Of a DNA stretch of 64,000 nt, positions 8,689-25,312 are shown piece by piece. How positions within the stretch are numbered: the first letter of the stretch is position 1; the number at the start of each line of letters is the position of its first letter. Source of the stretch: Allomeiothermus silvanus DSM 9946 (GTDB lineage: Bacteria; Deinococcota; Deinococci; Deinococcales; Thermaceae). The position numbers and the translations under genes were made by a program. The stretch is taken from positions 1,198,001 to 1,262,000 of the forward strand of contig NC_014212.1 of the NCBI RefSeq assembly GCF_000092125.1. The letters run 5' to 3'. A model generated the notes under the pieces. It was not told the DNA's origin. It ran no database searches and worked only from the letters and a program-made list of their open reading frames with translations.

Positions 8689-9249
8689 ATGTTCGCAGAC
8701 ACGAGCACCTACGATTTTCGAGTCATCCGGGGCGATACCTGGGAGTCCCCCATTTGGCTTGAGGACCCACACGGATTGGAGGACCTCTCCGGGGCAACGG
8801 CCCGCCTGCAAGTGCGGGATGCGGCCAAAGCGCTCATCCTGGAGGCCAGCACGGCCAACGGGCGGATTCAGCTACCCGGCCCGGTGGTGCTCGCCCAGGA
8901 CGCTCCGGCGGGGAGCCGGACTCTTCAGGTGCTCCCGCTGCCCGGCCCCCTGCTGGGGAACTACCAGGCTCGGCAGACGCTGCGCTTTGCGGGGCTGCCG
9001 GTGCGGCTCGCTGCGGACGCGCAAGAGGGGGATACCGCGCTACAGATCGAGCCGTTGGCGGCTCCCCTCAACGCCGGGAGCCAAGCGCCGATGGGACTGG
9101 TGCTAATCCGAATAGAGGCCAGCGCGATGGACCTCCCTCCGGGAGAGTACGCATACGACCTCGAGATTTCCTGGCCGGGTCCCCCAACCACGGTCGAAAC
9201 CCCCTTGCGGGGCAGGCTACTGGTCATAGAGGACATCAGCCATGTCTAG
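8689..9249 (+). CDS. Putative baseplate or tail-fibre attachment protein
   Basis: 186 residues, ATG start with AGGGAG upstream. The N-terminal pattern GDTWESPIWL followed by LSGATARLQVR resembles beta-sandwich domains near the N termini of baseplate upper proteins. The C-terminal part (PPGEYAYDLEISWP) fits the same fold. It is followed by fibre genes, so an adaptor role is likely. The final bases overlap the next start. Confidence 0.5.
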   Translation: MFADTSTYDFRVIRGDTWESPIWLEDPHGLEDLSGATARLQVRDAAKALILEASTANGRIQLPGPVVLAQDAPAGSRTLQVLPLPGPLLGNYQARQTLRFAGLPVRLAADAQEGDTALQIEPLAAPLNAGSQAPMGLVLIRIEASAMDLPPGEYAYDLEISWPGPPTTVETPLRGRLLVIEDISHV

Positions 9250-9553
9250 GGTGGTCGCGATCGAACCCCAACGGCGGGTGTACGCGGTTGAGCAGGGAGT
9301 GCGGATGGTGGCAGTGGGGGTGCGCCCGCCCCGAATTGCAGTCTCAGGCGGGAGCGGCGGGGCCACCTACGAGCACTTGCAAAGCAGCCCGGCCAGCGTG
9401 TGGACGGTCAACCACAACCTGGGGTTTTACCCCGACGTGCACGTCTACACCCTGGGAAACCTGGAGATCCTGGCCGAAGTGCAGCACGTCTCAGTCAACC
9501 AAACGCTGGTTTACTTCGTCGCGCCTACCGCAGGGCGGGCGCGCTGTAGCTAG
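9242..9553 (+). CDS. Small tail-fibre-associated protein
   Basis: 103 residues starting with ATG inside the end of the upstream gene (8-base overlap). It contains the motif VWTVNHNLGFYPDVHVY. A related NVTHNFGTRDVLVTVY segment occurs near the C terminus of the next fibre protein. The shared short beta module suggests both are parts of the same receptor-binding apparatus. Confidence 0.55.
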   Translation: MSRVVAIEPQRRVYAVEQGVRMVAVGVRPPRIAVSGGSGGATYEHLQSSPASVWTVNHNLGFYPDVHVYTLGNLEILAEVQHVSVNQTLVYFVAPTAGRARCS

Positions 9554-9562
9554 GGAGGGAAT

Positions 9563-10354
9563 ATGTCAAAGATCGTCGGCAGCAACCTGGACTTCAACAA
9601 CGTCGCCAAAATCGTCAATCTGCCCAATCCCACGGCGCCCCAGGACGCAGCTACCAAAGCCTATGTGGATAGCGCGGTGGAGGGGCTGGCCTGGAAGGAC
9701 TCGTGCCGCGTCGCAACGCAGGGCAACATCAACCTTGCGTCTCCAGGATCGACCATCGACGGCATCACGATGGCCGCCGGAGATCGCGTACTGGTGCGCG
9801 CCCAGACGACTGCCGCCGAAAACGGCATCTACATCTGGAACGGCGCGGCTGTCGCGATGACGCGCGCCCCTGACGCCAACACCGCCGCCGAACTCGAGCA
9901 GGCCGTGACCACCGTCGAAGAAGGCACCAGCGCGGGGGCCACCTTCCGCCAAACCTCGGTGAATTTTGTTCTGGATACTGACCCGGTAAGCTGGACCCTC
10001 TTCGGTACCGCCGCTCCCAGCGCGTCGGAAACCCAGCAGGGCATCATCCAGATCGCCACCCAGGCCCAGACCGACGCGGGTACCGATGATTCGAAGGCCA
10101 TCACGCCGCTCAAGCTGGCCAACTGGGCCGGGCGTAAACGTAAACTCTCCCAAGCGATAGGGGACGGCAGCGCCACCCAGTACAACGTGACCCACAACTT
10201 TGGCACCCGTGATGTGCTGGTCACGGTGTACCGCAATGCGACCCCGTGGGACGATGTGCTCTGTGACGTCGAGCGCCCCGATGCTAACACGGTGCGGGTG
10301 CGATTCGCCGCTGCCCCCAGCGCGAACCAGTTTGTGGTGGTGGTGATCGGCTAG
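9563..10354 (+). CDS. Phage tail fibre protein
   Basis: 263 residues after GGGAGGGAAT. The N terminus contains the fibre signature DAATKAYVDS, the middle has a repeated beta pattern, and the segment DDSKAITPLKLANW is a classic tail-fibre repeat. The C terminus contains a THNFGTRDVLV module shared with the upstream small protein. It would form a trimeric fibre that contacts the host surface. Its TAG stop overlaps the GTG of the next gene. Confidence 0.8.
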   Translation: MSKIVGSNLDFNNVAKIVNLPNPTAPQDAATKAYVDSAVEGLAWKDSCRVATQGNINLASPGSTIDGITMAAGDRVLVRAQTTAAENGIYIWNGAAVAMTRAPDANTAAELEQAVTTVEEGTSAGATFRQTSVNFVLDTDPVSWTLFGTAAPSASETQQGIIQIATQAQTDAGTDDSKAITPLKLANWAGRKRKLSQAIGDGSATQYNVTHNFGTRDVLVTVYRNATPWDDVLCDVERPDANTVRVRFAAAPSANQFVVVVIG

Positions 10355-10902
10355 TGGAGCAGTACAGCCCGCTCAAAATCTTGTCTCTATCCGCGCTCCC
10401 TGCCGCCTCGGACTACGCCGGTGCGCTGGTTCGGGTGGGGGGCAGCCTCTACTGGTCGGACGGCGCCAACTGGCAGCAGCTAGCCCCGGCGGGCGGGGGG
10501 GGATTCAGCGGCGTGCGCCTTACTGCAGCTAATTTCAGCGTGGCGAATGATACCTGGACCCTGGTTTCGTGGGCCACCCAGGTTTTCGACCTCGGAAACT
10601 ACTGGGCCTCCACTCAACCCACCCGGCTCACCATCCCTAGTACCGGCTACTACCTGATCATCGCTTCCGCCGAGTGGGACCCTGACAGCGGTTCCCGCGG
10701 CATTCGACTCAAGATCAATGGTGCGACTGTCTATGACTTGGTGATAGACGATACCGGGCGGGCGCAACCCAGACGAAACAACGGCAGCATCTTGCTGGCT
10801 TTGACAGGGAGCGATTATTTGGAGGTGGAACTCTATCACAACAGCGGCGACCCCACTGAAAACGTCATCCAAGCCGAAGTCGGCGCAGTCAGGATGGGAT
10901 AG
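10354..10902 (+). CDS. Fibre-tip / C1q-like jelly-roll protein
   Basis: 182 residues with a GTG start overlapping the previous stop (TAGTG). The C-terminal 130 residues show a C1q/TNF-like jelly-roll pattern: NDTWTLVSW, RLTIPSTGYYLIIASAEW, then a long beta-rich tail. This is common in receptor-binding tips of phage fibres. The N-terminal 50 residues contain LYWSDGANWQQL, another tail-associated motif. It likely works with the preceding fibre. Confidence 0.6.
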   Translation: MEQYSPLKILSLSALPAASDYAGALVRVGGSLYWSDGANWQQLAPAGGGGFSGVRLTAANFSVANDTWTLVSWATQVFDLGNYWASTQPTRLTIPSTGYYLIIASAEWDPDSGSRGIRLKINGATVYDLVIDDTGRAQPRRNNGSILLALTGSDYLEVELYHNSGDPTENVIQAEVGAVRMG

Positions 10903-12073: not shown

Positions 12074-13165
12074 TAGGACTTACGCAGTTGGCTGAAGGAT
12101 GTGGAGGGGATGGGCGAGATAACTTCGTATTGCCTCGCGAACAATGGACGCCTTGGCCTCGTACCAGCTCACCCCCCTGCGCAGCCGGTAGACCTCCAGC
12201 CGGAGGAAGGCCCGCAAAGCCAGGAGGAGGTGCCGCAGGATGGAGACCGCCTTCCTCACCTGGGCCCGCTCCACCCCACAGCACTGCTTGAGCCCCCGAT
12301 GGTACACTTCGATCCCCCATCCTTGCCGCTCTAACTCCGCCCGCTTCTCTTCGCTCATCCCCAGATGGTTCGTGGCCCAGTACTCCGCCTCCCCGTCCTT
12401 GGAGAGCGTTCGGAACACCCTCACGAACCCAAAACCCCGAAGATGAACCACCCTCCCCTCCCCAGGGATTTCCACCTCACGGATGGGTACATTTCCCTTC
12501 CCCTCCGGGTTGACCAGGCGGTTGCCCTTCAGCCGCGTCAGAAACCGCCAGCCAAAGCTGACTATGGCCTTGAGGTTCTCCAAGCTGGCATACCAGCTGT
12601 CCATCAGGACATATTCCGGCTGAAACCCCCGCTCCTTCGCTTTCTGGAGCATGGTCTGAAAGTGGTCGTTTTTGCTCTTCCCATCCTGGGGCTTGTCGTA
12701 GACCCGAAAGTCGCAGGGGATCAGGGCCTGCCCCTCCGTCCACAGCAGGGTCATGAGGGCGATGCCCCTAACCACCCTTTGGTGTTTGCCGCTCCAGTGG
12801 TAACTCACCAGATCCATGTCCCGAGCGTAGGGCTTATCCAGGGTGGTGTCGTCCAGGATCAGCAGCCCCTCCCTGAGCTTCACGAAGGCCTTGGCCTCCT
12901 GCCACAGCGCCGCCGTGTCGGGCGGCTGTCTTTGCAGCAGGCGGGTAAAGGCATCATGGGCGGGAGGGCTCTTCTCCTTTGGACTACAGCGAGCGGCCTC
13001 GGTACAGGTGAAGACCCGCTGAGCGGCGATGAGAAAGTGGATGTAGTCCAGGTCATCGCACTTCGGTGGGTTCATGGGCATCACCCCCTTTGGAGAAGCT
13101 TGGCTAAGCACTCTCCTCCTAGCACACAGAAGAATGTCCAGTCAACTGCAACTGCGTAACTCCTA
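12074..13165 (-). mobile_element. Insertion sequence (DDE type), 1092 bp
   Basis: The terminal inverted repeats match at 16 of 17 positions: TAGGACTTACGCAGTTG at 12074-12090 and the complement of TAGGAGTTACGCAGTTG at 13149-13165. Five-base direct repeats CTGCT flank it (12069-12073 and 13166-13170). It carries one transposase on the minus strand, whose stop lies inside the left repeat. Intact ends and a duplicated target indicate a fairly recent insertion. It sits 78 bp upstream of cas3. Confidence 0.88.
12080..13075 (-). CDS. IS transposase (DDE, IS4/IS701-like)
   Basis: 331 residues from the ATG at 13075. That start has AAGGGGG 8 nt upstream; an ATG two codons earlier would sit almost on the ribosome binding site. 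The catalytic triad is visible as Asp in LILDDTT, Asp in YVLMDSWYAS and Glu in WGIEVYHRGLKQ. It catalyses cut-and-paste movement of the 12074-13165 element. The reading frame is intact. The exact IS family is uncertain. Confidence 0.85.
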   Translation of the reverse strand: MNPPKCDDLDYIHFLIAAQRVFTCTEAARCSPKEKSPPAHDAFTRLLQRQPPDTAALWQEAKAFVKLREGLLILDDTTLDKPYARDMDLVSYHWSGKHQRVVRGIALMTLLWTEGQALIPCDFRVYDKPQDGKSKNDHFQTMLQKAKERGFQPEYVLMDSWYASLENLKAIVSFGWRFLTRLKGNRLVNPEGKGNVPIREVEIPGEGRVVHLRGFGFVRVFRTLSKDGEAEYWATNHLGMSEEKRAELERQGWGIEVYHRGLKQCCGVERAQVRKAVSILRHLLLALRAFLRLEVYRLRRGVSWYEAKASIVREAIRSYLAHPLHILQPTA

Positions 13166-13242
13166 CTGCTGTTGGACATCGGCCTCATGGTGTCGGCGTG
13201 GATATTTCGGCTGTTTGCCCGCGGTGAAGAGAAGGTGGCGCT

Positions 13243-15960
13243 GTGGTGAGCCTCTCGGATGCTGCTAAGGCCTTGTGGGCCAAGAGCGACCGCAACAAAG
13301 ACGGGGGCGAATGGCACCCGCTCATAGCCCACCTGTTGGATGTGGCCGCTTGCGCCGAGGTGATTTTAGAGCGGGAGCCAAAGAAAACGTTAGAACTCTA
13401 TGCTCAAGACCTGGGCCTCCCGCTCGAGCAGGCCAAGGCTTGGGTTTGCGCCCTAGCGGGCCTGCACGACATCGGTAAAGCCAGCCCGGCCTTTCAGCAA
13501 AAGTGGCCCGAGGGCAAAAAACGGGTCTGTGACGCAGGGTTGACCTGGACTGTAGACCCTACCCCCCCACCGAATGACGTTTCCCACAGCGTGATCAGTG
13601 AGGAGGTGCTGCCCGAACTCCTCGAGGAGCGAGGTTGGGTACTCGGGGCCGCCCAGAATGTTGCGGCAGCGGTGGGTGAGCACCATGGTTTCAGGGCCAC
13701 ACGGCAAGACCTCGATGATGTGACCAGCAGGGAAAAAGGTAAAGGGGTCTGGGACGAGGTACGCCAGGAACTGTTCGAAGCGGTACTTGAGGTGCTCGAG
13801 GTAGGGAATGCCCCCAATGTCTCTATCTACAAGGGTGCGGCCTTCGAGCGCCTGGCAGGCCTCGCCAGCTTCGCCGACTGGATCGGCTCGAGCCTCGACT
13901 TTCACCCGCTCGGGGACGACTTGGCCCAGTATTACCAGAACGCTAAAGCGCGGGCCGCGCAAAAGCTCGATGACATCGGCTGGTTCCAGCGGGAGGCCCT
14001 GATGAAGGAGCCGCAAACCCTGGAGGCGGTGTTCGCCTACCTGGGCAAGCCCGACCAGCCCTTCAAACCCCGCCCGCTGCAAGCCGTGCTCGAGCGCTTG
14101 CTAGAGGGGATCAACACCCCTGCGCTGTTCTTGGTCGAGGCCCCAATGGGCGAAGGCAAGACCGAGGCTGCCTTCTACGCCCACCTGCGCTTGCAATCGG
14201 CCAACGGGCACCGGGGGATGTACATCTCTTTGCCCACCCAGGCCACCGGCAACCTGATGTTCGAGCGGGCCAAGGAGTTCTTGGGCCGCTACGGAAAATC
14301 CCGCAGGCTGGACCTGCAACTCCTGCACGGGGCCAGCGAGCTGGTGGAGGAGTACCAGAAGATACGCGTGCGCCCCAACACGCCTGAAGGAGGAGAGGAG
14401 GGGGTAGAGGCCCAGGTCTGGTTCTCCCACCGCAAGCGCGGCCTGCTCTCGGAGTATGCGGTGGGGACGGTGGATCAGGCGCTTCTGGGTATCCTGCCTA
14501 CTAGGCATCAGTTCGTCCGGCTGTGGGGGCTGGGCAACCGGGTGGTGGTGCTGGACGAGGTGCATGCCTACGACACCTACACCAGCGGCCTCATCGAGTC
14601 GCTGGTGCGCTGGCTCTGGGCCTTGGACTCCTCGGTCGTGCTGATGAGCGCGACGCTGCCCAAGGCCAAGCGGGAGGCTTTGCTCAAGGCGTTCGGGGCA
14701 GGTGAGATACCCAAAGTGGAAGACAAACCCAAACCCTACCCACGCATTACCCGCGTCGTAAAGGGTGACCCTAAACCCATGGTGGAAACCTTTGCAGCGC
14801 GGAAACAGCCCACCCTGGCGCTAAAGGCTTTGCCGCTTGACCTCGAGGCCCTTGCCGGGAAAGCGCTCGAGCAGGCCCAATCGGGCGGCTGCGTGGCCTG
14901 CATTGTCAACACCGTGCAGCGGGCGCAGGACTTGTACCAGGCGCTGGTGGGCAAGGCGGATGGGGTGGAGGTTCACCTATTCCATGCCCGCTATCCCCTT
15001 GAGGAGCGCTTAGAGCGCGAGCGGACCGTCCTCGCCAAGTTTGGCAAACCGGGCCAGCGTCCTCAGAAAGCTGTCCTGGTCGCCACCCAGGTGGTCGAGC
15101 AATCCCTCGACCTCGACTTCGACGTGATGTTCACGGACTTAGCCCCGGTGGACTTGGTGCTGCAACGCGCCGGGCGGCTGCACCGTCACGAGCGTGATCC
15201 CAAGGAGCGCCACGCCCACACCAAGCCCGTGCTGTGGGTGGCGGGCTTGGAGGCCGAGGGCGTGCCGAATTTTGGTTCTGCCGAACGAATCTACGAGCGC
15301 TACATTTTGCTGCGGAGCTGGCTCGCGCTGCGGAGCCGCACCCACATTGACCTTCCGGGCGACATCGACCGCTTGGTGCAGGAGGTATACAGCGAGCCTG
15401 AGCCCCAGGGGCTTTCAGAAGAGTGGAAGACGGCCCTCGAGCAGGCCCGGACCCGCATGGAGCAAAGGAATGCGCGAGACCAGGACGAGGCGGCGTACGC
15501 GCCGTTTGGCGAACCCTGTGAGACCGACTGGCTCGATCCCCAGACCTTCCCCAAGCTCCCTGACGACGAACCCAACCCCGACGACGACCCCAGCCTGCTC
15601 CATACCCGCAAGGGTAGCCCTAGCGCCACGGTGGTACTGCTGCACAAGGTGGGGGGCCAGCTTTGCCTAGATGCAAGCGGCAAGGAGCCCGTGAGCCTTG
15701 CCAGAAAGCTCGAGCTGGCCGAGGCTAAGCGTGTGTTTGCCCGCTCGGTCAAGCTCAGCCGCCACGAGCTTACCAGCAACGACTTCGCCGCGCTCAAAGC
15801 CCACCGCAAGAGCCAGGGCCTAGCCGCCAAGGTCTGGAGCGAAACCCCACTGCTGGCCCATGCCCACCCGGTGGTGCTCGAGGAGGGCAGGGCCGTGCTG
15901 GGGGAACTCGAGCTTGAACTTCATCCCGAGCTTGGGGTGGTTTATAGGAGTGCGCTATGA
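13243..15960 (+). CDS. cas3: CRISPR-associated nuclease-helicase Cas3 (type I-E)
   Basis: 905 residues with tandem GTG codons at 13243 and 13246; either could start. The N-terminal HD nuclease has H25 in HPLIAHLLDVA, then LHDIGK, HSVI and HHGF. The SF2 helicase has Walker A MGEGKTE (about residue 300), DEVH (about 438), MSATLP, and motif VI QRAGRLHR. It ends with a C-terminal accessory domain. Cas3 is recruited by target-bound Cascade and degrades DNA. The start overlaps the stop of a small ORF now split by an IS, so its native promoter may be disconnected. The stop overlaps the next ORF (ATGA). Confidence 0.96.
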   Translation: MVSLSDAAKALWAKSDRNKDGGEWHPLIAHLLDVAACAEVILEREPKKTLELYAQDLGLPLEQAKAWVCALAGLHDIGKASPAFQQKWPEGKKRVCDAGLTWTVDPTPPPNDVSHSVISEEVLPELLEERGWVLGAAQNVAAAVGEHHGFRATRQDLDDVTSREKGKGVWDEVRQELFEAVLEVLEVGNAPNVSIYKGAAFERLAGLASFADWIGSSLDFHPLGDDLAQYYQNAKARAAQKLDDIGWFQREALMKEPQTLEAVFAYLGKPDQPFKPRPLQAVLERLLEGINTPALFLVEAPMGEGKTEAAFYAHLRLQSANGHRGMYISLPTQATGNLMFERAKEFLGRYGKSRRLDLQLLHGASELVEEYQKIRVRPNTPEGGEEGVEAQVWFSHRKRGLLSEYAVGTVDQALLGILPTRHQFVRLWGLGNRVVVLDEVHAYDTYTSGLIESLVRWLWALDSSVVLMSATLPKAKREALLKAFGAGEIPKVEDKPKPYPRITRVVKGDPKPMVETFAARKQPTLALKALPLDLEALAGKALEQAQSGGCVACIVNTVQRAQDLYQALVGKADGVEVHLFHARYPLEERLERERTVLAKFGKPGQRPQKAVLVATQVVEQSLDLDFDVMFTDLAPVDLVLQRAGRLHRHERDPKERHAHTKPVLWVAGLEAEGVPNFGSAERIYERYILLRSWLALRSRTHIDLPGDIDRLVQEVYSEPEPQGLSEEWKTALEQARTRMEQRNARDQDEAAYAPFGEPCETDWLDPQTFPKLPDDEPNPDDDPSLLHTRKGSPSATVVLLHKVGGQLCLDASGKEPVSLARKLELAEAKRVFARSVKLSRHELTSNDFAALKAHRKSQGLAAKVWSETPLLAHAHPVVLEEGRAVLGELELELHPELGVVYRSAL

Positions 15961-16358
15961 TAGATAGCGTTCCTCGCCCAAGCGGGGATGAACCGTTGGT
16001 AGGACAAAGGGTTACAACATCCCCACATTCGTGGGGCTTATTGCTAAAACGTAAGTTGGTTGTACAGAGGGTAGGGGAGATTGACAATCAAACCGTTCTC
16101 TGCTTTAATGCCCTAAAACCGAAGAACCTCGCCCGCCGCCAAGCAAAGAGAGGTTCCTCGGTGAGTCAGGAGGTGTGCCCCGTGCTCTATGGCATTTTAG
16201 CAGACGACGAGCTTGTAAATTTGGTGATGGATGCAGCACATGCTGCAAACGTTTCCAACGCCGAAAAACTCAGGGCTGAGCTCGAGCTGAGATTGGTCGA
16301 GTACAGGCTGCAGGAGCAATATGGCTCCCTTGATGAGTGGGACTGCGATACCTCGTGA
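15957..16358 (+). CDS. Small unknown ORF between cas3 and cse1
   Basis: 133 codons from an ATGA overlap with cas3, with AGGAG 7 nt upstream. Codons 4-13 are encoded by a degenerate CRISPR repeat (15967-15995). Only the last ~66 codons look like a normal protein (ILADDELVNLVMDAA, then a charged helix LRAELELRLVEYRLQEQ). A GTG at 16161 is an alternative start for this 66-residue part. It lies downstream of an internal promoter (16081-16109) and a hairpin (16119-16161) that would occlude it. Codon use is more AT-rich than in the cas genes. I recognise no family; it may be a relic or a small regulatory protein. Confidence 0.45.
   Translation: MIDSVPRPSGDEPLVGQRVTTSPHSWGLLLKRKLVVQRVGEIDNQTVLCFNALKPKNLARRQAKRGSSVSQEVCPVLYGILADDELVNLVMDAAHAANVSNAEKLRAELELRLVEYRLQEQYGSLDEWDCDTS
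15967..15995 (+). repeat. Degenerate CRISPR repeat inside the cas operon
   Basis: The 29 bases match the array repeat at 24 of 29 positions, in the same orientation. The 3' 14 bases GCGGGGATGAACCG (from position 15982) are exact. It begins 7 bases after the cas3 stop. The Cas6e-type stem is weakened (TCCTCGC against GCGGGGA). It could be a relic repeat, or a repeat-like RNA element in the cas mRNA. Confidence 0.75.
16021..16036 (-). repeat. Repeat-like hairpin in inverse orientation
   Basis: CCCCAC and GTGGGG form a 6-bp stem around ATTC. Read on the minus strand, the context (GTGGGGATG then GTAACC) resembles GCGGGGATG-AACCG of the array repeat with a few inserted bases. It lies 25 bp from the forward degenerate repeat, so the junction holds a pair of opposed repeat-like hairpins. 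Confidence 0.45.
16081..16109 (+). promoter_or_regulatory. Internal promoter upstream of cse1, leader-like
   Basis: TTGACA (16081-16086), a 17-nt spacer and TTTAAT (16104-16109). The -35 region TTGACAATCAAAC and the preceding AGGGGAGA both recur in the CRISPR leader (22972-22979 and 22983-22995). It would transcribe the small ORF and cse1 onward independently of cas3. The similarity suggests shared control or common ancestry with the leader. Confidence 0.65.
16119..16161 (+). promoter_or_regulatory. Hairpin at the 5' end of the internal cas transcript
   Basis: CCGAAGAACCTC (16119-16130) pairs with GAGGTTCCTCGG (16150-16161) with one mismatch. It would form just after the predicted transcription start and covers the GAGG and first base of the GTG start at 16161. 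It could control translation of the small ORF or act as an attenuator or stabilising 5' stem. Confidence 0.5.
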
Positions 16359-16411
16359 GGGATGTGTTTCCCGTCTTAGGCCATCGCTATCCAAATCAAG
16401 GGAGGTGAGTT

Positions 16412-18097
16412 TTGCACACGTTCAACCTAATAACCCAGCCCTGGATTCCCGTAAGGGAGGGCAACCAACTAAAGGAAGTGAGCCTCGAGCAGGCCCTGCT
16501 CGAGGGCCGTCGATTCGAGCGTATCGAAGACCCCAGTCCGCTCGTGACCGTAGCGCTATATCGCTTGCTCCTGGCCATTTTGCACCGGGCACTGCAAGGC
16601 CCAGAGAACTCCGACGAGGCGGCAAAGTGGTTCAGCAACGGTTTTGACGCCGAGAAGATTCGGGATTATCTGGCCAAACACCAAGACCGCTTTGATTTGT
16701 TCCACCCCGAACGGCCCTTCTACCAGGTGCCTGACTTCACCCTCGAGCGCTCCTGCCGCTCCTGGACGGTGCTGGCCCCCGAACTCAACTCCGACAACAA
16801 CAAGGTTTTGTTCGACCACACCGTCACCTCGAGGCCCCGCCCCCTCCACCCCGCCGAGGCCGCCCGATTGCTGGTGGCCAACCAGACCTTCGCCCTTTCG
16901 GCGGGCAAGAGCGTGCTTTGCCACACCGCTACCGCGCCCGTGGCGACGGCAGCATTGGCCCTCATGCTGGGCGAGAACCTCCACGAGACGCTGTGTTTGA
17001 ACCTCGTCAGCTATCCCAAAAGCGAGTACGAGCGCGATTTTGCCACCTGGGAGCGGGAGCCGCTGCGGGTATCCGACCTGAAAAACTGCGAGGCCGCCAG
17101 GGCCACCCCCAAGGGCATCGTTCATCGCTACACCTGGCTCTCGCGCGCGGTGCGCCTCGATCCCGAAGAGGGAAACGGCCAGGCGGACGATCCCCTGTCG
17201 GGACGCTTTGCGAGCGTACACCGGACGGACGATCCCCTGTCGGGACAGGGTACTCACGCGCCTGTTCACCCGGGACGATCCCCTGCGGGACAGACAGCTC
17301 ACGCCGCTGTTTACCGGACCGTGGTGCGCTGGATCGCCTACGCTTCGGGGATTCGCTACGAGGAAGCCGCCATACGCCCCGACCCCATGGTGGCCTTCCG
17401 CCCCGACCCCAAGGACCTCTCCAAGCAGTATCCGCTCGGCTTTCGCGAGGGTCGGGCGCTGTGGCGAGACTTCGCCTCGCTCTTGCCCCGGCCAGGTTCC
17501 GCGCACAGCCCGAGGGTGGTGGAGCACGCCCGTAACGTCTACAGGGCGCTGGGGACTCGGTTTAAGGGACGGGGCATTCCGGTAATGGTCGCGGGCCAGG
17601 CCAACGACCAGGCCAAGGTCGAACTCTGGCGGGGCGAGGTTTACCGGCTGCCCGAGGCCATCCTGAGTGATAAGGACATCTGGCGCTTTGTGGAGGAGAA
17701 CCTGGAGAGAGCCGAAGAAATGGGAAGGGCCTTGAACGGGGCGGCCCGAGCCCTGGCCACACAACTCCTAACTCTGGGAGACCGGCAGCCGCACAAGGAC
17801 GACGTGATCAAGCTGATGCAGAGCTTTCCCCACCAAGCCGCCTACTGGTCGGCGCTCGAGGGCCAGTTCGCCAACTGGATCGTGCGGCTGGGCCCCGATT
17901 TCGAAGAGCAGCAAGCCCGGCTCGAGCAGGACTGGCTAAAGACCCTCCAGCGCGAAGCCTTGCAGGCCTGGCAGCTCACCAAACTCGCCGCCGGGGACGA
18001 TGCCAGGGCTTTGCGGGCCATTCACAAGAGCGAAGGCATCCTGCTGGCCTATATCTACGGCAAAGGGAAGGAGGAAGCGGGTGCAAAAGGAAATTAG
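16412..18097 (+). CDS. casA: Cascade large subunit Cse1/CasA (Cas8e)
   Basis: 561 residues with a TTG start after an excellent GGGAGGTGA site (16400-16408). The N terminus (FNLITQPWIPV) and the HPERPFYQVPDF block are typical of Cse1, which recognises the PAM and recruits Cas3. It is longer than my recollection of the usual ~500 residues. Residues about 258-294 are encoded by an imperfect triple DNA repeat absent from family members I know, so this looks like an in-frame insertion. The downstream four-helix bundle region continues in frame. Its 3' end overlaps cse2 by 17 bases. Confidence 0.93.
   Translation: MHTFNLITQPWIPVREGNQLKEVSLEQALLEGRRFERIEDPSPLVTVALYRLLLAILHRALQGPENSDEAAKWFSNGFDAEKIRDYLAKHQDRFDLFHPERPFYQVPDFTLERSCRSWTVLAPELNSDNNKVLFDHTVTSRPRPLHPAEAARLLVANQTFALSAGKSVLCHTATAPVATAALALMLGENLHETLCLNLVSYPKSEYERDFATWEREPLRVSDLKNCEAARATPKGIVHRYTWLSRAVRLDPEEGNGQADDPLSGRFASVHRTDDPLSGQGTHAPVHPGRSPAGQTAHAAVYRTVVRWIAYASGIRYEEAAIRPDPMVAFRPDPKDLSKQYPLGFREGRALWRDFASLLPRPGSAHSPRVVEHARNVYRALGTRFKGRGIPVMVAGQANDQAKVELWRGEVYRLPEAILSDKDIWRFVEENLERAEEMGRALNGAARALATQLLTLGDRQPHKDDVIKLMQSFPHQAAYWSALEGQFANWIVRLGPDFEEQQARLEQDWLKTLQREALQAWQLTKLAAGDDARALRAIHKSEGILLAYIYGKGKEEAGAKGN
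17185..17320 (+). repeat. Triple imperfect repeat within cse1
   Basis: GGACGATCCCCTGTCGGGAC occurs at 17185-17204 and 17227-17246. A copy one base shorter is at 17273-17291. Intervals are 42 and 46 bp, and the second and third copies share similar following bases. Each copy has a short inverted TCCC/GGGA. The array adds about 40 low-complexity residues (DDPLSG repeated) to Cse1 without breaking the frame. Confidence 0.8.
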
Positions 18098-18680
18098 CAG
18101 AGAACAAGCTTTTGTGCGGCATCTGCGCCAGCGCAGCGAACCTGCCGACCTGGCGCGGATGCGCCGCGCCCTGGGCGATCCAGGCCAGGAAGTGATCCCT
18201 GTGGTCGAGGGGTTCTTGGGCCGCATCCAGGACGAGCGGGAAGACCACAGGGAGCGGATGGTCTATTACCTGGTGGCCGGGCTATGGGCCACTACAGTGT
18301 CTTCATCGGAGCTGGAGCAGTTTCGCAAAAAGCCTGAGGAAGAACCTGAAGTGAGCCAGAGCGAAGAGAGTGACGTGAGTAAAGGCTACCGCCGCACCCT
18401 GGGCCACGCCATCGCCCAGCTTTACCTCGCCCGTGACCAGTCCAAAAGCATCGAGCAGCGCTTCATCGCCTTGCTCGATGCCGACGAGGAACAGCTCCCG
18501 TACCGGATACGCCAGATGGTACGGCTGCTCAAGAGCGAGGAAGGCATCCCCATCTACTGGTCGGAACTCTTGCGCGACCTGCTGGCTTGGGACTACGAGC
18601 GCAGGCCGGTGCAGCAGAAGTGGGCCAGGGCTTTTTACCGCACTGTGGCAAAAGAAACCGAAAGAGGAGAAGAAGAATGA
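18081..18680 (+). CDS. casB: Cascade small subunit Cse2/CasB
   Basis: 199 residues from GTG 18081, with GGAAGGAGG upstream, overlapping the cse1 end. It is an all-helical Arg-rich protein with the Cse2 pattern (RRALG near the start; LGHAIAQLYLARDQ; IRQMVRLLKSE). Cse2 dimerises along the Cascade belly and stabilises the R-loop. It ends in an ATGA overlap with the DUF2939 gene. Confidence 0.92.
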   Translation: MQKEISREQAFVRHLRQRSEPADLARMRRALGDPGQEVIPVVEGFLGRIQDEREDHRERMVYYLVAGLWATTVSSSELEQFRKKPEEEPEVSQSEESDVSKGYRRTLGHAIAQLYLARDQSKSIEQRFIALLDADEEQLPYRIRQMVRLLKSEEGIPIYWSELLRDLLAWDYERRPVQQKWARAFYRTVAKETERGEEE

Positions 18681-19207
18681 ACACCGAAAGCCAAGAAAAA
18701 TCCACCCCCACCCCCAAGAAGCCGCTGCTCTTTTTGGCCGTATTGGCTGGATTGTTACTGCTGCTGGCTTACGCCTGGTTTTCGCCCTACCTGACGCTTA
18801 GGGGCATCCAGCAGTCCATTCAGCGCAACAACCCTTCGGCGCTCGAGCGCTACATTGATTTTCCCCGTGTGCGTGAAAGCCTCAGGGCTGACCTAAACCG
18901 CATGTTGGTAGAGCAGGCCAGCCAAGACCAGACCGGATTTGGGGCGCTGGGTCTGCTGTTTGTGGCCCCGCTGATAGATCAGTTGGTAAGCGTGCTTGTC
19001 ACCCCCGAAGGCCTGGCCAGCATCGGCACCGGCCAGGAGCCGCAGAAGGGCGACCTCGGGGCGGTTCGCGACTGGCGCCTCAAGCGAGAGGGATTTTCCC
19101 GAGCTTTGCTGCATCCCAAAGATAACCCTAACGAGGGGCTCCTGATGGAACGACGGGGCCTGGGCTGGAAAGTTGTACGGCTACAGGTCAACACCCTGCC
19201 CAAATAG
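18677..19207 (+). CDS. Membrane-anchored DUF2939 protein in the cas operon
   Basis: 176 residues, starting at an ATGA overlap with cse2, with GAGGAGAAGA upstream. A charged N terminus (about 15 residues) precedes one membrane helix (residues 16-35). Then comes the DUF2939 pattern: [14 protein letters not shown], a D-F-P-R-V-R motif, and [18 protein letters not shown]2939 proteins are of unknown function and not part of the known type I-E set. Here the gene is fully intact and sits 10 bp before cas7, so it is co-transcribed and co-translated with Cascade. The topology suggests the C-terminal domain is outside the membrane. A role in CRISPR is inferred only from position. Confidence 0.85.
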
Positions 19208-19217
19208 GAGAGAAAAC

Positions 19218-20384
19218 ATGAAACACCTGCTCGAGATCCACATCTTGCAAAACTTTGCCCCCAGCAACCTCAACCGCGACGATACCGGTTCTCCCAAGGA
19301 CGCCATTTTTGGCGGGGTGCGCCGGGGGCGCATCAGCAGCCAGTGCCTCAAGCGGGCCGCGCGGGAGTATGTGCGCGATCACCCGGGCGGCCTGCCTCAG
19401 GAGGCGCTGGCTTTGCGCACCAAGCGGCTGGTGCAAGCATTGGTAGAACAGCTTAAGGCCAAGGGCCGGGACGAGGAGGAAGCCCGGCAGAAAGTAGAGC
19501 AAGCCTTAGGTGGGATGGGCCTGAAGGTAGATGCAGAGGGCAAAACCCAGTACCTGCTGTTCTTGGGCAAGCAAGAGGTAGCGAGAATTGCCGACCTTAT
19601 CGAACAGCACTGGGATGGCCTGGTGGCCCCCCAAGCCGAGGAGGAGGGGGGTAAAAAGAAAGCCAGGGAAGCTAAGAAAGCTGCCAAGGAAGCCGTCCCT
19701 GACGAGATCAAAAAAGCTTTGGGCAGTGTGCTGGATGGGGGCAAGGCCCTGGATGTAGCGCTCTTTGGCCGCATGCTGGCCGATTTGCCTGAGAAGAACC
19801 AGGACGCCGCCTGCCAGGTAGCCCACGCCATCTCCACCCACGCCGTCGAGCGCGAGTTCGACTTCTACACCGCCGTGGACGACCTCAAACCTGACGACAA
19901 CGCCGGGGCGGACATGCTGGGCACGGTAGAGTTCAACTCGGCCTGCTTCTACCGTTATGCGGCCATAGACCTCGAGAAGCTACGTGCGAACCTCCAGGGC
20001 GATGCCGAGCTGATGCTTAAGAGCCTCGAGGCTTTCCTCAGGGCCATGGTCAAGGCCAAGCCCAGCGGAAAGCAAAACTCCTTCGCCGCCCACAATGACC
20101 CGGAGTACGTCGTTTTCACCGTGCGCCAGGAGGCCGACCCGCGCAACCTGGCCAACGCCTTTGAGAAGCCGATTCGTCCTAACAAGGAGAAGAGCCTCAC
20201 CGAGGCTTCGCTGGAGCAGCTCGAGGCCAAGTGGCAGAAACTCTCCGAGGCCTACGACCAAAATGGAGAGGCCTGGGTACTCAACCTGACCGAGGTAAAA
20301 AGCCAAATCGGCACACCTGTCAAAAACCTGGGCGAACTCGTCGCAAAGGCGCTGGAAAAGGTCAGGGCTAACATGGGGGTCTGA
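19218..20384 (+). CDS. casC: Cascade backbone Cas7/CasC (Cse4)
   Basis: 388 residues from ATG 19218 after TAGGAGAG. The N terminus ([35 protein letters not shown]) and the later [20 protein letters not shown] block are hallmarks of I-E Cas7. Six copies bind the crRNA spacer in Cascade. A Lys/Glu/Ala-rich insert lies near residues 145-175. The gene ends 1 bp before cas5. Confidence 0.96.
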
Positions 20385-20385
20385 C

Positions 20386-21084
20386 ATGCCCACCCTACTC
20401 TTGCGTCTAGCAGGCCCCATGCAGTCTTGGGGCACCAAGAGCCGCTTCGACGAGCGGGACACCGATCTTTCGCCTTCCAAAAGCGGGGTGATTGGCCTGC
20501 TGTGCGCGGCGATGGGCATAGACCGTGAGAAGCGCGAGCCGGTGCTGCAACTCGCAGATTTGCGCATGGGGGTGCGGTTGGATCAGCCAGGGGTGCTGCG
20601 CTACGACTACCAGACCGCCCAGAACGTGATCGCTGCCGATGCGTCCAAGGTGCACCCCACCACCGTCTCGAGGCGCTACTACCTAGCCGACGCCGTCTTC
20701 CTGGTGGGGCTCGAGGGGGAGGATCGGAGGCTGCTCGAGTGCGCTCACCAGGCGCTCAAAAATCCGGTTTGGCCGCTTTTCCTCGGAAGAAAAGGCTACG
20801 TTCCGAGCCCAGGGGTATATCTCAAAGACGGCTTGCGGGACGAGCCTTTGCAAGAAGCGCTCAAGAACTACCGCTTTCTCGGGCGTGATTGGCCCGAGGA
20901 CGAGGAAGGAAAAGACCTCGAGTCGGCCAGACTGCCGGTGATGCTCGAAAATCGGGACTCGAGCGAAGGCTCATTGCGCATGGATCAGCCCCTCGGCTCG
21001 TTTGCCGAGCGCCGCTTTGGGGCCCGCTTCGTGGTTCCGGATTTTGTGGAGGTGAAGCGTGTATCTGAGCCGACTCCTGCTTGA
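20386..21084 (+). CDS. casD: Cascade subunit Cas5e/CasD
   Basis: 232 residues from ATG 20386. The family start LLLRLAGPMQSWGTKSRF and the glycine-rich SKSGVIGLLCAAMGI loop are clear. Cas5e caps the 5' handle of the crRNA in Cascade. It overlaps cas6e by 26 bases. Confidence 0.95.
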   Translation: MPTLLLRLAGPMQSWGTKSRFDERDTDLSPSKSGVIGLLCAAMGIDREKREPVLQLADLRMGVRLDQPGVLRYDYQTAQNVIAADASKVHPTTVSRRYYLADAVFLVGLEGEDRRLLECAHQALKNPVWPLFLGRKGYVPSPGVYLKDGLRDEPLQEALKNYRFLGRDWPEDEEGKDLESARLPVMLENRDSSEGSLRMDQPLGSFAERRFGARFVVPDFVEVKRVSEPTPA

Positions 21085-21685
21085 CCCCCGTCACAAGCAA
21101 GCCCGCACCGACCTCGCCAACCCCTACCAGATGCACGCCACCCTCTGCCACGCCTTTGCCGAACCCGAGCAAACCCCACCGCGCTTTCTATGGCGGGCCG
21201 AAGAGGGCAAAACCCCGACGGTGCTGGTGCAGAGCATTGAAACGCCGAACTGGGAAAAACTGACGCAGCGTTTCCCCGGCTACTTTTCTCAAAGGCCAGA
21301 GTCCAAGCCGATCCCCCTCGAGCACCTCCAGAGCGGCCAGGTGCTGCGCTTCCGCCTGCGGGCCAACCCCACCGTCACCCGCAAGGACCCCCAGAACCCC
21401 CAAAAAAGTAAACGGCACGGCTTGAAGGAGGTCGAAGAACAGCTCGAGTGGCTCTCGCGCCAGGGCAGGAAGGGCGGCTTCGCCGTGCTCGGGGCGATGG
21501 TGGCCCAGAGCGAGCGGGTGAAGATGTTCAAGCACACCGGAGGTAGCCCCATCGTGCTTCAGTCCGTACTCTACGATGGCCACCTCAGGATCACCGACCT
21601 CGAGGCTTTCAAAAACACCCTCACCGGCGGCCTGGGCCACGCAAAAGCTCTTGGTTTCGGCCTCCTGTCCATCGCCAGGGGGTGA
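21059..21685 (+). CDS. casE: crRNA endonuclease Cas6e/CasE
   Basis: 208 residues with a GTG start inside the cas5 end. The catalytic histidine is visible as H26 in YQMHATLCHAF, matching the family position. The C terminus has the glycine-rich RNA-binding loop (GGLGHAKALGFGLLSI). Cas6e cuts the repeat hairpin and stays bound to the 3' handle. Its TGA overlaps the GTG of cas1. It could also act on the repeat-like hairpins found in the cas mRNA. Confidence 0.95.
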   Translation: MYLSRLLLDPRHKQARTDLANPYQMHATLCHAFAEPEQTPPRFLWRAEEGKTPTVLVQSIETPNWEKLTQRFPGYFSQRPESKPIPLEHLQSGQVLRFRLRANPTVTRKDPQNPQKSKRHGLKEVEEQLEWLSRQGRKGGFAVLGAMVAQSERVKMFKHTGGSPIVLQSVLYDGHLRITDLEAFKNTLTGGLGHAKALGFGLLSIARG

Positions 21686-21744
21686 ACGTGGCTGAATTTG
21701 CTGATAGTATCAAGCATATTCCCCGCAAGCGTGGGGATGGACCC
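21678..21744 (+). repeat. Leader-end plus CRISPR repeat relic inside cas1
   Basis: 21716-21744 matches the array repeat at 23 of 29 positions, including TATTCCCCGCA and GGGGATG. The 37 bases before it align with the bases before repeat 1: TTTGCTG-TAG-ATCAAG occurs in both, with GGGGGT at the upstream edge of each. The array copy is at about 23016-23081. A leader-repeat unit therefore once existed, or was copied, at the cas6e/cas1 junction. Confidence 0.8.
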
Positions 21745-22701
21745 TACGAGACCCGCAACCTTCAGGAGCTGCCCAAGTTCCGCGATGGGCTTTCATACAT
21801 CTACCTCGAGCATGGGCGCATCGAGCAGCAGGATCAGGCAGTGGCCTATTACAGCCAAGAAGGGGTGGTGTCTATTCCTGCTGCTGCGCTGGGGGTATTG
21901 CTCCTGGGCCCAGGCACGGCTATCACCCACGCGGCTATTCGCCAACTGGCCAACAACGGTTGCTCGGTGTTCTGGGTGGGCGAGGAAATGGTGCGCTTCT
22001 ACGCCAGCGGGATGGGTGAGACCCGCTCCAGCGCTAACCTGATGCGCCAGGCCCAGGCCTGGGCTAACCCAGAGGCGCACCTCGAGGTAGTCAAGCGGCT
22101 CTACCGGATGCGCTTCCCCGAGCCCCTCTCGCCCGAGCTCTCCCTCGAGCAGATCCGGGGCCTCGAGGGGGTGCGGGTGCGCGACACCTACGCCCGTTGG
22201 AGCCGCGAGACCGGCGTGGAGTGGAAGGGCCGCAACTACAACCGCGGCAACTGGGCTGAAGCTGATCCGATCAACCGGGCGCTTTCGGCAGGGGCGGCTT
22301 GCTTATACGGCCTGGCCCATGCCGCTATTGTTTCCGCGGGCTACAGCCCTGCCTTAGGCTTTATCCATACTGGTAAGCAGCTCTCCTTCGTCTACGACAT
22401 GGCCGACATCTACAAAGCCGAGACCCTTATACCCACTGCTTTTCGGGTGGTAGCCGAATCGGATGTGGGTGTTGAACGTCGCGTGCGTTGTACATTGCGG
22501 GATCAATTGAGGGAAGTTCGTCTTCTCGAGCGCATCGTCTCGGATCTGCATAGCCTCTTCGATGCCCTAGACGTTCCTGATCCCTACGCTGCCGATGCCG
22601 CGTCTCCGGGCGAACTGTGGGACCCCAGCGGCCCGGTTCCTGGTGGAATAGCCTATGGTAGTGATCATCCTGGAGAAGGTGCCCAAGACCCTGAGGGGTG
22701 A
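21682..22701 (+). CDS. cas1: CRISPR integrase Cas1 with a leader/repeat-derived N terminus
   Basis: 339 residues from GTG 21682, overlapping cas6e. Metal-site residues are E162 (GLEGVRVRD), H229 (GFIHTGK) and D242 (YDMAD). They are offset by 21 from the E. coli positions I recall (141, 208, 221). The typical Cas1 start corresponds to about residue 25 (RNLQELPKFRDG). The preceding ~24 residues are encoded by DNA resembling the CRISPR leader end plus one repeat (21678-21744). A start downstream of the repeat would need a rare codon, so the extension is probably translated. The C-terminal tail overlaps cas2. Confidence 0.93.
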   Translation: MNVAEFADSIKHIPRKRGDGPYETRNLQELPKFRDGLSYIYLEHGRIEQQDQAVAYYSQEGVVSIPAAALGVLLLGPGTAITHAAIRQLANNGCSVFWVGEEMVRFYASGMGETRSSANLMRQAQAWANPEAHLEVVKRLYRMRFPEPLSPELSLEQIRGLEGVRVRDTYARWSRETGVEWKGRNYNRGNWAEADPINRALSAGAACLYGLAHAAIVSAGYSPALGFIHTGKQLSFVYDMADIYKAETLIPTAFRVVAESDVGVERRVRCTLRDQLREVRLLERIVSDLHSLFDALDVPDPYAADAASPGELWDPSGPVPGGIAYGSDHPGEGAQDPEG

Positions 22702-23032
22702 ACTTTCGCGCTGGATGCTCGAGGTTGGCACCGGGGTATTCGTGGGCAGTGTTTCGGCTTTGGTACGCGATTTACTATGGGAGAAGTGTGTAGCGAAGAA
22801 AACCGCTGGTCGCTGCTGCTTGCTCTACCGTACCAACAACGAGCAAGGTTTCGCTGTTCGAACCCATGGTGACACTACTCGTACTCTAGTAGACTTTGAT
22901 GGGCTGACCCTGGTAGCTGTGAAGAACGCCGAGTGGGAGCGTATGCACCGGAAGACCAAGAGAAAACGACCAGGGGAGAATCTTGACAATCAAACTCGGG
23001 ATTGTGACACTTCCGGGGGGTCTAGCGGCTAG
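22655..23032 (+). CDS. cas2: CRISPR integration factor Cas2 (type I-E)
   Basis: 125 residues from ATG 22655, overlapping the cas1 end. The sequence MVVIILEKVPKTLRGELSRW and LLYRTNNEQGFAVRTHG are typical of I-E Cas2. The last ~17 residues (from LDNQTRD) are read from leader DNA containing the TTGACA promoter element. The frame stops only 20 bp before the first repeat. Cas2 pairs with Cas1 to insert spacers. The tail is probably non-essential and created by leader overlap. Confidence 0.93.
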   Translation: MVVIILEKVPKTLRGELSRWMLEVGTGVFVGSVSALVRDLLWEKCVAKKTAGRCCLLYRTNNEQGFAVRTHGDTTRTLVDFDGLTLVAVKNAEWERMHRKTKRKRPGENLDNQTRDCDTSGGSSG

Positions 23033-23052
23033 TTTTGCTGTTAGAATCAAGA
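22972..23052 (+). promoter_or_regulatory. CRISPR leader
   Basis: It contains TTGACA (22983-22988), with a weak GACACT 17 nt downstream (23006-23011) as possible -10. The leader end GGCTAGTTTTGCTG..AGAATCAAGA abuts repeat 1. The first 60 bases are still cas2 coding sequence. Blocks of this leader recur upstream of cse1 (16073-16093) and in cas1 (21678-21715). Confidence 0.7.
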
Positions 23053-23692
23053 GTATTCCCCGCACACGCGGGGATGAACCGATCAAACGCTCCTCGGCGA
23101 GGCTCAGGCGCAGGTATTCCCCGCACACGCGGGGATGAACCGGAGATGGAATGACCAAGGAAAATATACCACAAGTATTCCCCGCACACGCGGGGATGAA
23201 CCGTCTCTCCAGATCTTCGGCGCTTCCCACGCCAGTATTCCCCGCACACGCGGGGATGAACCGTACCACACCCCCCTCAGCCTGAACCGGTAGACGTATT
23301 CCCCGCACACGCGGGGATGAACCGCAAGCACGGAAGGCGAAGAATATATCTCGCCGCGTATTCCCCGCACACGCGGGGATGAACCGCTGGTGGCGCGACT
23401 GGGGGGGTGACAAAACTAGTATTCCCCGCACACGCGGGGATGAACCGCGGCTAGGGGGGGTAACGGTGTTCTCCCAGGCGTATTCCCCGCACACGCGGGG
23501 ATGAACCGAGCGTGGCAAAATTGACGTGCGGCGCTCTAAAGTATTCCCCGCACACGCGGGGATGAACCGGAGGTCGCATATGGGAATCTTTAGAGGAATC
23601 AAGTATTCCCCGCACACGCGGGGATGAACCGAAATTCATTAGCAGTAGAACTTAATCCTGAACGTATTCCCCGCACACGCGGGGATGAACCG
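23053..23692 (+). CRISPR. Type I-E CRISPR array, 11 repeats, 10 spacers
   Basis: Eleven identical 29-bp repeats (GTATTCCCCGCACACG then CGGGGATGAACCG) start at 23053, 23114, 23175, 23235, 23296, 23358, 23419, 23480, 23541, 23603 and 23664. Spacers are 31-33 bp. The repeat stem CCCCGC/GCGGGG suits Cas6e cleavage. Even the last repeat is unmutated, which is unusual and suggests a young or recently homogenised array. Orientation follows from the cas2-side leader. I saw no spacer clearly matching other parts of this window. Confidence 0.98.
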
Positions 23693-23734
23693 CGCCGCCC
23701 CTGTCGCCCTGGAAAAAGTTGTCAAATAGTTATC

Positions 23735-24083: not shown

Positions 24084-24249
24084 TGTAATCGGTCAACACA
24101 TTTGAGACTCTTTGAGGAACCGACTCCTCTTGCATCTTAGCCAAAAACTCCAGCGGAGCAAGACCCTGTAATCGGTCAACACATTTGAGACTCTTTGAGG
24201 AACCGACTCCTCTTGCATCTTAGCCAAAAACTCCAGCGGAGCAAGACCC
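24084..24249 (-). repeat. Two extra 83-bp copies of the IS481 end
   Basis: The terminal 83 bp of the neighbouring IS (starting TGTAATCGGTCAACAC) is present three times in tandem: 24084-24166, 24167-24249, and 24250 onward as the true IS end. The copies look identical. The transposase reading frame runs out of the IS into the second copy. Confidence 0.9.
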
Positions 24250-25312
24250 TGTAATCGGTCAACACATTTGAGACTCTTTGAGGAACCGACTCCTCTTGCA
24301 TCTTAGCCAAAAACTCCAGCGGAGCAAGACCCCCCAGGGCCATGTGAGGCCTTCGGCGGTTGTAGTAGTCCAGGTAGGTATCCAGCTCTGCCTGCAGCTC
24401 GCTGAGCGGGGTGGGCAAAGGCCGGGTGTAGAACTCCTCCTTGAAGGTCCGCTGCATCCGCTCCACGTGACCATTGAGTTTAGGACTCCTCGGCGGTAGC
24501 ACAAACAAGGCAATCCCCAGAGCACAGCAGGCCTCCTCAAACTCGGCCATGAACTCGCTGCCCCCATCCACCTGGATGGCCCGGATGGGAAAAGGGGCCC
24601 TGGCCAGAAGCAAGGACAAGAACCCCTCAGAAAGCTTAGCCGTGGCCCGGCTGTGCACCTCCGCCAGGACAAACCGGCTATGGAGGTCAATCGCCGAGAA
24701 GTGCTTGACCATGCTTCCCGGTCCTAAGGTCAGGGTGAGGGTGTCCACCTGGACCAGGTCCCCAGGAGCCCTGGCCTCGTATCCTCGGGGCTTCCTTTTG
24801 GCGTAGGGCCGGTTTACCCTTCGCTTTAGCTTCCCTCTTTGAGTCCGGGCCAGGTAGCCGGCCACGCTCTCGATACGTCGGTGCTTCTCCAGGTAGGCCA
24901 GGATGCGCCCCACCGTGCGTTCGCTCATCTGGAAACCCTCCTTGCGGAGGGTAAGCCAGATGGACCAGCGTCCCCAGGTGGGGTTTTCCTTGCGGAGAGT
25001 TTCTATTCTAATGAGCAGCCCTGGGGTCCAGTGGACCTTTGTGCGCAGGTGCTTAGGGCGGCGGGAGCGGGGTTTGAGTCCAGCCAGGCCCTTTTCTTTT
25101 AGGGCTTTTTGCCAGCGGTGGTAGGTGGCCCGGCTGATCCCGACCAGGTCCTGGATCTCCTTCCAGCTCTTTTTACTTTCACGCAGGGCTTTGACCAGTC
25201 GGAGCTTGCGCAGACGTTCCTGGACCTCTGGGTCGCTTGCGTTGGCCTCGGCCAGCCTCTGTGCTTGTCTAGCGCCTCTCCATATCTCTCGGCCAACGGT
25301 GGTAAACTGCAC
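24176..25312 (-). CDS. IS481-family transposase, copy 1
   Basis: 378 residues. An N-terminal helix-turn-helix ([21 protein letters not shown]) precedes an rve integrase core with the DDE triad: D in VQVDTLT, D in [10 protein letters not shown] in [13 protein letters not shown]. The C-terminal [17 protein letters not shown] is typical of the family. The IS itself supplies no stop codon, so the last ~25 residues are read from the adjacent tandem 83-bp copy. The identical frame occurs in copy 2. Confidence 0.88.
   Translation of the reverse strand: MQFTTVGREIWRGARQAQRLAEANASDPEVQERLRKLRLVKALRESKKSWKEIQDLVGISRATYHRWQKALKEKGLAGLKPRSRRPKHLRTKVHWTPGLLIRIETLRKENPTWGRWSIWLTLRKEGFQMSERTVGRILAYLEKHRRIESVAGYLARTQRGKLKRRVNRPYAKRKPRGYEARAPGDLVQVDTLTLTLGPGSMVKHFSAIDLHSRFVLAEVHSRATAKLSEGFLSLLLARAPFPIRAIQVDGGSEFMAEFEEACCALGIALFVLPPRSPKLNGHVERMQRTFKEEFYTRPLPTPLSELQAELDTYLDYYNRRRPHMALGGLAPLEFLAKMQEESVPQRVSNVLTDYRVLLRWSFWLRCKRSRFLKESQMC

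Follow-up and report, generated by a model that had tools for sequence, protein, structure and literature searches.

Among CRISPR types, I-E has been studied best, and to our knowledge genes for membrane accessories have no established place in it. The window analysed here (a 64,000-nucleotide stretch of contig NC_014212.1 of Allomeiothermus silvanus DSM 9946) contains a type I-E operon in which a gene for a DUF2939 protein with a predicted membrane helix lies between cse2 and cas7. Does this gene belong to Cascade, does it add a separate function to the operon, or is it an ordinary gene that has moved there? The locus reads cas3 – ORF133 – cse1 – cse2 – DUF2939 – cas7 – cas5 – cas6 – cas1 – cas2, followed by an array. 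As in a standard type I-E operon, all eight core genes (cas3, cse1, cse2, cas7, cas5, cas6e, cas1 and cas2) were present in the usual order together with the array, whereas two extra genes, ORF133 between cas3 and cse1 and DUF2939 between cse2 and cas7, distinguish this operon. Its features, in window coordinates, are as follows.

13243–15960, forward strand: cas3 (Pfam Cas3_HD, Cas3-like_C_2 and Cas3_C)
15957–16358, forward strand: ORF133, without a family, between cas3 and cse1 (same-slot homologs in three genomes, 58–93%)
16412–18097, forward strand: cse1 (cas8e; Pfam CRISPR_Cse1, 398 bits)
18081–18680, forward strand: cse2 (cas11e; TIGR02548, 82.7 bits; PADLOC Cas11e)
18677–19207, forward strand: DUF2939 ORF, 176 aa, between cse2 and cas7 (Pfam PF11159, 95.9 bits; PADLOC PDC-S55, E=1e-30)
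19218–20384, forward strand: cas7 (CT1975; Pfam, 447 bits)
20386–21084, forward strand: cas5 (Pfam search)
21059–21685, forward strand: cas6e (Pfam search)
21682–22701, forward strand: cas1 (Pfam search)
22655–23032, forward strand: cas2 (CT1978; Pfam search)
23053–23702, forward strand: CRISPR array, 11 repeats of GTATTCCCCGCACACGCGGGGATGAACCG, spacing 60–62

The gene was the only DUF2939 copy in the A. silvanus genome (3.72 Mb, 3 contigs). Its ATG (18677–18679) shares the motif ATGA with the TGA stop of cse2 (18678–18680), and its TAG stop (19205–19207) is separated by a 10-bp gap from the cas7 ATG (19218–19220). The first-pass annotation, made from the sequence alone, had given this overlap and gap exactly, and its assignment to DUF2939 stood as well, since the product scored 95.9 bits against a PF11159 cut-off of 24.8. 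Finer features of the gene are listed below.

18664–18669, forward strand: GAGGAG, ribosome-binding-like site of the DUF2939 gene, inside the end of cse2 and 7 nt before the ATG (similar in relatives)
18725–18781, forward strand: predicted N-terminal membrane helix, aa 17–35 (mean Kyte-Doolittle 2.56; helix 15–49 in the AlphaFold2 model)
18752–19021, forward strand: DUF2939 Pfam domain, aa 26–115 (Pfam search)
19208–19213, forward strand: GGAGAG, ribosome-binding-like site of cas7, in the 10-bp gap (GGAG kept in relatives)

Scanning 13100–23100 for promoter patterns revealed no sigma-70-like promoter, which is weak evidence but consistent with expression as an operon. Judging from the coupling, the DUF2939 protein would be co-expressed with Cascade. 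The coupling to Cascade genes that the first-pass annotation had described also extended to relatives: at all nine loci with complete flanks the gene overlapped the preceding ORF by 1–17 nt and ended 7–10 nt before cas7, and GGAG lay between the DUF2939 stop and cas7 in the eight complete relatives.

The arrangement recurred well beyond this strain. Of 111 Deinococcales genomes searched with Pfam, 36 had DUF2939, and in 10 Thermaceae genomes from three genera, A. silvanus included, the gene was at the cse2/cas7 junction (at one locus, in G042, only the cas7 side was visible). These genomes include M. luteus, M. rufus, Calidithermus chliarophilus, C. roseus and an uncultured Meiothermus. The first-pass annotation had proposed surveying DUF2939 neighbours for linkage to cas genes, against the prospect that the gene occurred in this strain only and without linkage elsewhere; linkage proved recurrent, in 10 genomes of three genera. 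An arrangement seen in 10 genomes goes beyond chance; the genomes do not count as independent cases, the CRISPR linkage being of one origin. The ORF was intact at every complete locus, and each positive Thermaceae genome in the survey held one copy, in the operon or elsewhere. Within the three genera 11 of 12 DUF2939 copies were in CRISPR loci, but these were of one origin, and 10 of 22 genomes lacked DUF2939 altogether. The front of the C. chliarophilus operon had diverged (Cas3 48%, Cse1 39% and Cse2 35% identical), and its DUF2939, Cas7 and Cas6 proteins were 68–76% identical. That operon also has an extra small ORF (L049:8605-8856) between cse2 and DUF2939, which matches phrog_12383 and, weakly and under the Pfam cut-off, DUF4177.

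Trees and comparison of closely similar operons indicated how the gene came to occupy this site. The embedded DUF2939 copies formed one clade, and sister to it was a chromosomal Meiothermus copy from G032, which like some Thermus copies has an M32 peptidase gene next to it; DUF2939 copies of Thermus adjoin arginase/nuo or M32 peptidase genes and have no CRISPR linkage. A copy past an array after cas6 (G071) was considered as a further CRISPR-linked case and set aside, as it grouped with the Thermus chromosomal copies and probably lies near the array by coincidence. In the Cas7 tree the corresponding clade (100/99) comprised 10 operons, 8 with DUF2939 and 2 without, a pattern that a single entry with later losses or swaps would produce. 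One related operon, G040, whose cse1, cse2, cas7 and cas5 genes are 90–94% identical to those of A. silvanus at the DNA level over their whole lengths, is a clean empty site: cse2 and cas7 overlap directly, and there is no DUF2939 in the genome. G108 and every Thermus I-E operon examined likewise lacked DUF2939, whereas a core Cascade subunit would be expected in nearly all operons. Its absence from closely similar operons argues that DUF2939 is not a core subunit, and the I-E system probably carries it as an optional extra.

The junction has also been a site of recent exchange. Comparison with the operon of G026, which belongs to another genus, delimited the following tract.

18400–19300 (bounds approximate), forward strand: tract carrying DUF2939, 95–98% identical to the G026 operon (100-bp identity profile)

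The cassettes of A. silvanus and G026 were 97.7% identical, the shared tract was about 0.9 kb long, and dS between the two was 0.03 for DUF2939 and 0.40–0.83 for every cas gene. The cassette has thus been exchanged at the cse2/cas7 junction through recombination within the cas genes on either side. On these sequences DUF2939 may have been gained or replaced in the A. silvanus lineage, passed to G026 or lost in G040. Between M. ruber-like and A. silvanus operons dS was 1.4 for DUF2939 and 0.6–0.9 for cas genes, which fits allele replacement at one slot.

Embedded DUF2939 is under purifying selection. Pairwise dN/dS was about 0.13–0.27 in nearly all informative embedded pairs, with similar values for cas genes, and was well below 1 at dS above 0.5; the ratio of 0.69 between A. 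silvanus and G026 reflects only 12 changes and carries little weight. The same constraint was evident in G023, a genome without a I-E Cas7, whose DUF2939 copy is nested inside the embedded clade (78% identical; pairwise dN/dS 0.16–0.20). This copy lies about 0.3 kb upstream of a gene for a TPR protein, which is followed by a WYL-Cas3 fusion and I-C genes and, further downstream, by III-B Cmr-type genes and an adaptation module (ORF reading); no remnants of I-E genes were found flanking it. In this region (L031:9719-14734) the WYL domain is fused N-terminally to the type I-C Cas3, and several Meiothermus I-E operons have separate relatives of the TPR and WYL parts ahead of cas3.

The protein itself gave few functional clues. 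The first-pass annotation had called a single N-terminal membrane helix: the helix at aa 17–35 is strong, and that it is the only one is likely but uncertain, as a second hydrophobic helix at about aa 89–107 reached a Kyte-Doolittle value of 2.14. Charges flanking aa 17–35 are nearly balanced in the A. silvanus protein, which together with this second helix allows more than one topology. Two AlphaFold2 models (pLDDT 82 and 85.5) consisted of a long N-terminal helix, two more helices and a four-stranded sheet. Neither model had a match with E <0.1 in the PDB, nor did the first among viral models, and a profile search of solved structures with DUF2939 returned nothing significant. The top of the PDB list was mostly NTF2/cystatin-like, with some periplasmic MlaC/Ttg2D-like entries, at TM-scores of ≤0.34, and we therefore assigned no fold. 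No enzymatic motif was identified in the protein. The tail before the helix is about 16–20 residues long in one subclade and about 3–7 in most other copies; the I-C/III-B-linked copy has the long form, which the embedded C. chliarophilus and M. ruber-like copies lack.

Outside the Deinococcota, DUF2939 was found inside a second kind of defence operon. On Acinetobacter plasmids, all 29 DUF2939 records also carried the same HsdR family, and the regions opened were ordered hsdM-hsdS-DUF2939-(X)-hsdR, except one with broken hsd genes; these operons represent one restriction system lineage. Like the A. silvanus protein, the Acinetobacter proteins belong to the same Pfam family, have an N-terminal hydrophobic helix and are encoded inside a DNA-targeting defence operon, but they are only about 26–35% identical over the matched part, come from another phylum and accompany another defence system, and some copies have a fused C-terminal part (342 aa). 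The restriction-operon embedding is independent of the CRISPR embedding. In the hsdS/hsdR slot (e.g., L179:216-7394) DUF2939 occurs with variable cargo, including the fused C-terminal part, an LRAT-like pair and a lipoprotein-like ORF. On a Polaromonas plasmid one ORF separates DUF2939 from a type I restriction endonuclease gene downstream of it.

The family is already listed in PADLOC-DB as defence candidate PDC-S55 (PDLC05037), whose profile matched aa 20–171 of the A. silvanus protein (E=1e-30). The view of the first-pass annotation that DUF2939 is not a known I-E component agrees with the open literature searched, and its suggestion of an undescribed ancillary factor may hold in that sense, but not with respect to PADLOC-DB, where the candidate was already present. 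No literature naming PDC-S55 was found in the open literature searched, and none naming DUF2939 (subscription papers, preprints and supplements were outside the scope). PADLOC PDC candidates were nominated through 'guilt-by-embedding' and are mostly not validated (PMC10855318, PMC12988326). With the PDC-S55 profile the Acinetobacter protein scored 240 bits, the A. silvanus protein 105 and four other DUF2939 proteins 99–137, and the best score of the former suggests that the profile was probably built from restriction-embedded proteins. Type I-E operons, inside which the gene was embedded in 10 genomes, represent an additional, independent context within a known defence system.

These associations did not extend to the family as a whole. 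No HSDR_N restriction gene was near DUF2939 in any of 26 sampled gammaproteobacterial genomes, and a general link with restriction was rejected for the sampled Gammaproteobacteria. No recognisable complete defence system was found among 101 neighbours at 20 of these loci; possible MADS defence genes beside one copy were dismissed, the mad3, mad8 and AriA matches all being to one protein; there was also a weaker mad2 match (8.5e-13). Searches with the A. silvanus Cas proteins found no cas genes near the copies of Stenotrophomonas, Xanthomonas, Brevundimonas and related genera.

We tentatively read the DUF2939 ORF as a selected, optional ancillary gene of one I-E lineage that most likely provides a separate, envelope-level defence layer, and we put the chance of this just short of even. 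An ordinary chromosomal DUF2939 gene, as in Thermus, would have entered the cse2/cas7 junction once, in the ancestor of one operon lineage of Meiothermus and Calidithermus (sequence comparison and trees support a single entry), preserving a stop-start overlap upstream and a ribosome site for cas7; it would then have stayed with the operon across genera while being exchanged between operons as a cassette. Its membrane-anchored alpha/beta domain may act as a second layer against incoming DNA or phage at the envelope, with Cascade-Cas3 operating in the cytoplasm. Such a role is suggested solely by the gene's place inside CRISPR operons and, in an independent lineage, inside type I restriction operons; the G023 I-C/III-B locus and the PDC-S55 listing agree with it. 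On the other hand, the DUF2939 copies sampled outside the two lineages showed no defence linkage, its CRISPR linkage is of one origin, and the protein offers neither an enzymatic motif nor a significant fold match. If the defence role is true, this operon is a second independent embedding for a family seemingly nominated from restriction operons. Rather unlikely, in our estimate, is the broader proposal that DUF2939 is a general membrane partner of unrelated DNA-targeting systems (I-E, I-C/III-B and type I restriction) that adds an envelope response, which would make it a module common to innate and adaptive immunity in different phyla.

A relocated housekeeping gene is a serious rival to a separate defence layer, and a distinctly possible one: a general Thermaceae envelope protein whose single copy moved into the cas operon and uses it for expression alone would account for the presence of exactly one copy in each DUF2939-positive Thermaceae genome, for the non-CRISPR sites in Thermus and Meiothermus G032 and for a family mostly without defence linkage, and purifying selection fits it equally well. 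Such a job would have to be dispensable, however, given the 10 of 22 genomes without the gene, and this explanation sits less easily with the concentration of copies in CRISPR loci (though of one origin), the recent cassette exchange at the operon junction and the independent lineage with DUF2939 inside a restriction operon. Were it true, the locus would serve as a warning for guilt-by-embedding, showing that a housekeeping gene can relocate into an immune operon and become a conserved, fixed part of it. That DUF2939 instead helps the I-E machinery, binding Cascade or Cas3 to place interference or adaptation at the membrane or sensing phage entry, appears improbable. Its translationally coupled position next to cse2 and cas7 and the tail of one subclade would suit a helper, but the gene is absent from the G040 and Thermus I-E operons, the swaps of its alleles were independent of the cas genes, some embedded copies lack the long tail that the I-C/III-B-linked one has, and with the helix as a simple N-in anchor the domain would face away from Cascade. 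The tethering of Cascade suggested in the first-pass annotation fares poorly for the same reasons, and the G023 copy and the Acinetobacter restriction operons also count against it. A conceptual analogy, with no relation claimed, is Csx28, a membrane accessory of Cas13b (type VI-B) that forms a pore after Cas13b activation (PMC12669027); it too is a small membrane protein whose gene accompanies that of a CRISPR effector, but the CRISPR type is another. Optional presence is what a neutral passenger or decaying insertion without function would show, yet this is scarcely credible for an ORF that is intact at all complete loci, has dN/dS well below 1 and was kept in three genera. Closely matched operons with and without DUF2939 in related thermophiles make the gene's contribution directly testable.

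Several other features of the host operon were observed. ORF133 (15957–16358, forward strand), which overlaps cas3 through ATGA, is a second unnamed embedded gene; same-slot homologs were 93% identical in G040, 66% in the M. ruber-like G030 and 58% in G108, and it fell into no family of Pfam or PADLOC, nor did any NCBIfam profile match it above cut-off. An in-frame insertion in cse1 (about 17185–17325), missing from all four relatives compared, holds a dispersed repeat, GACGATCCCCTGTCGGG, of which the genome has 23 copies (≤1 mismatch). By ORF reading only, phage-tail-like genes and an IS-like transposase (8689–10902 and 12080–13111) lie directly upstream of cas3, and a transposase-like gene (24176–25312) lies downstream of the CRISPR array.
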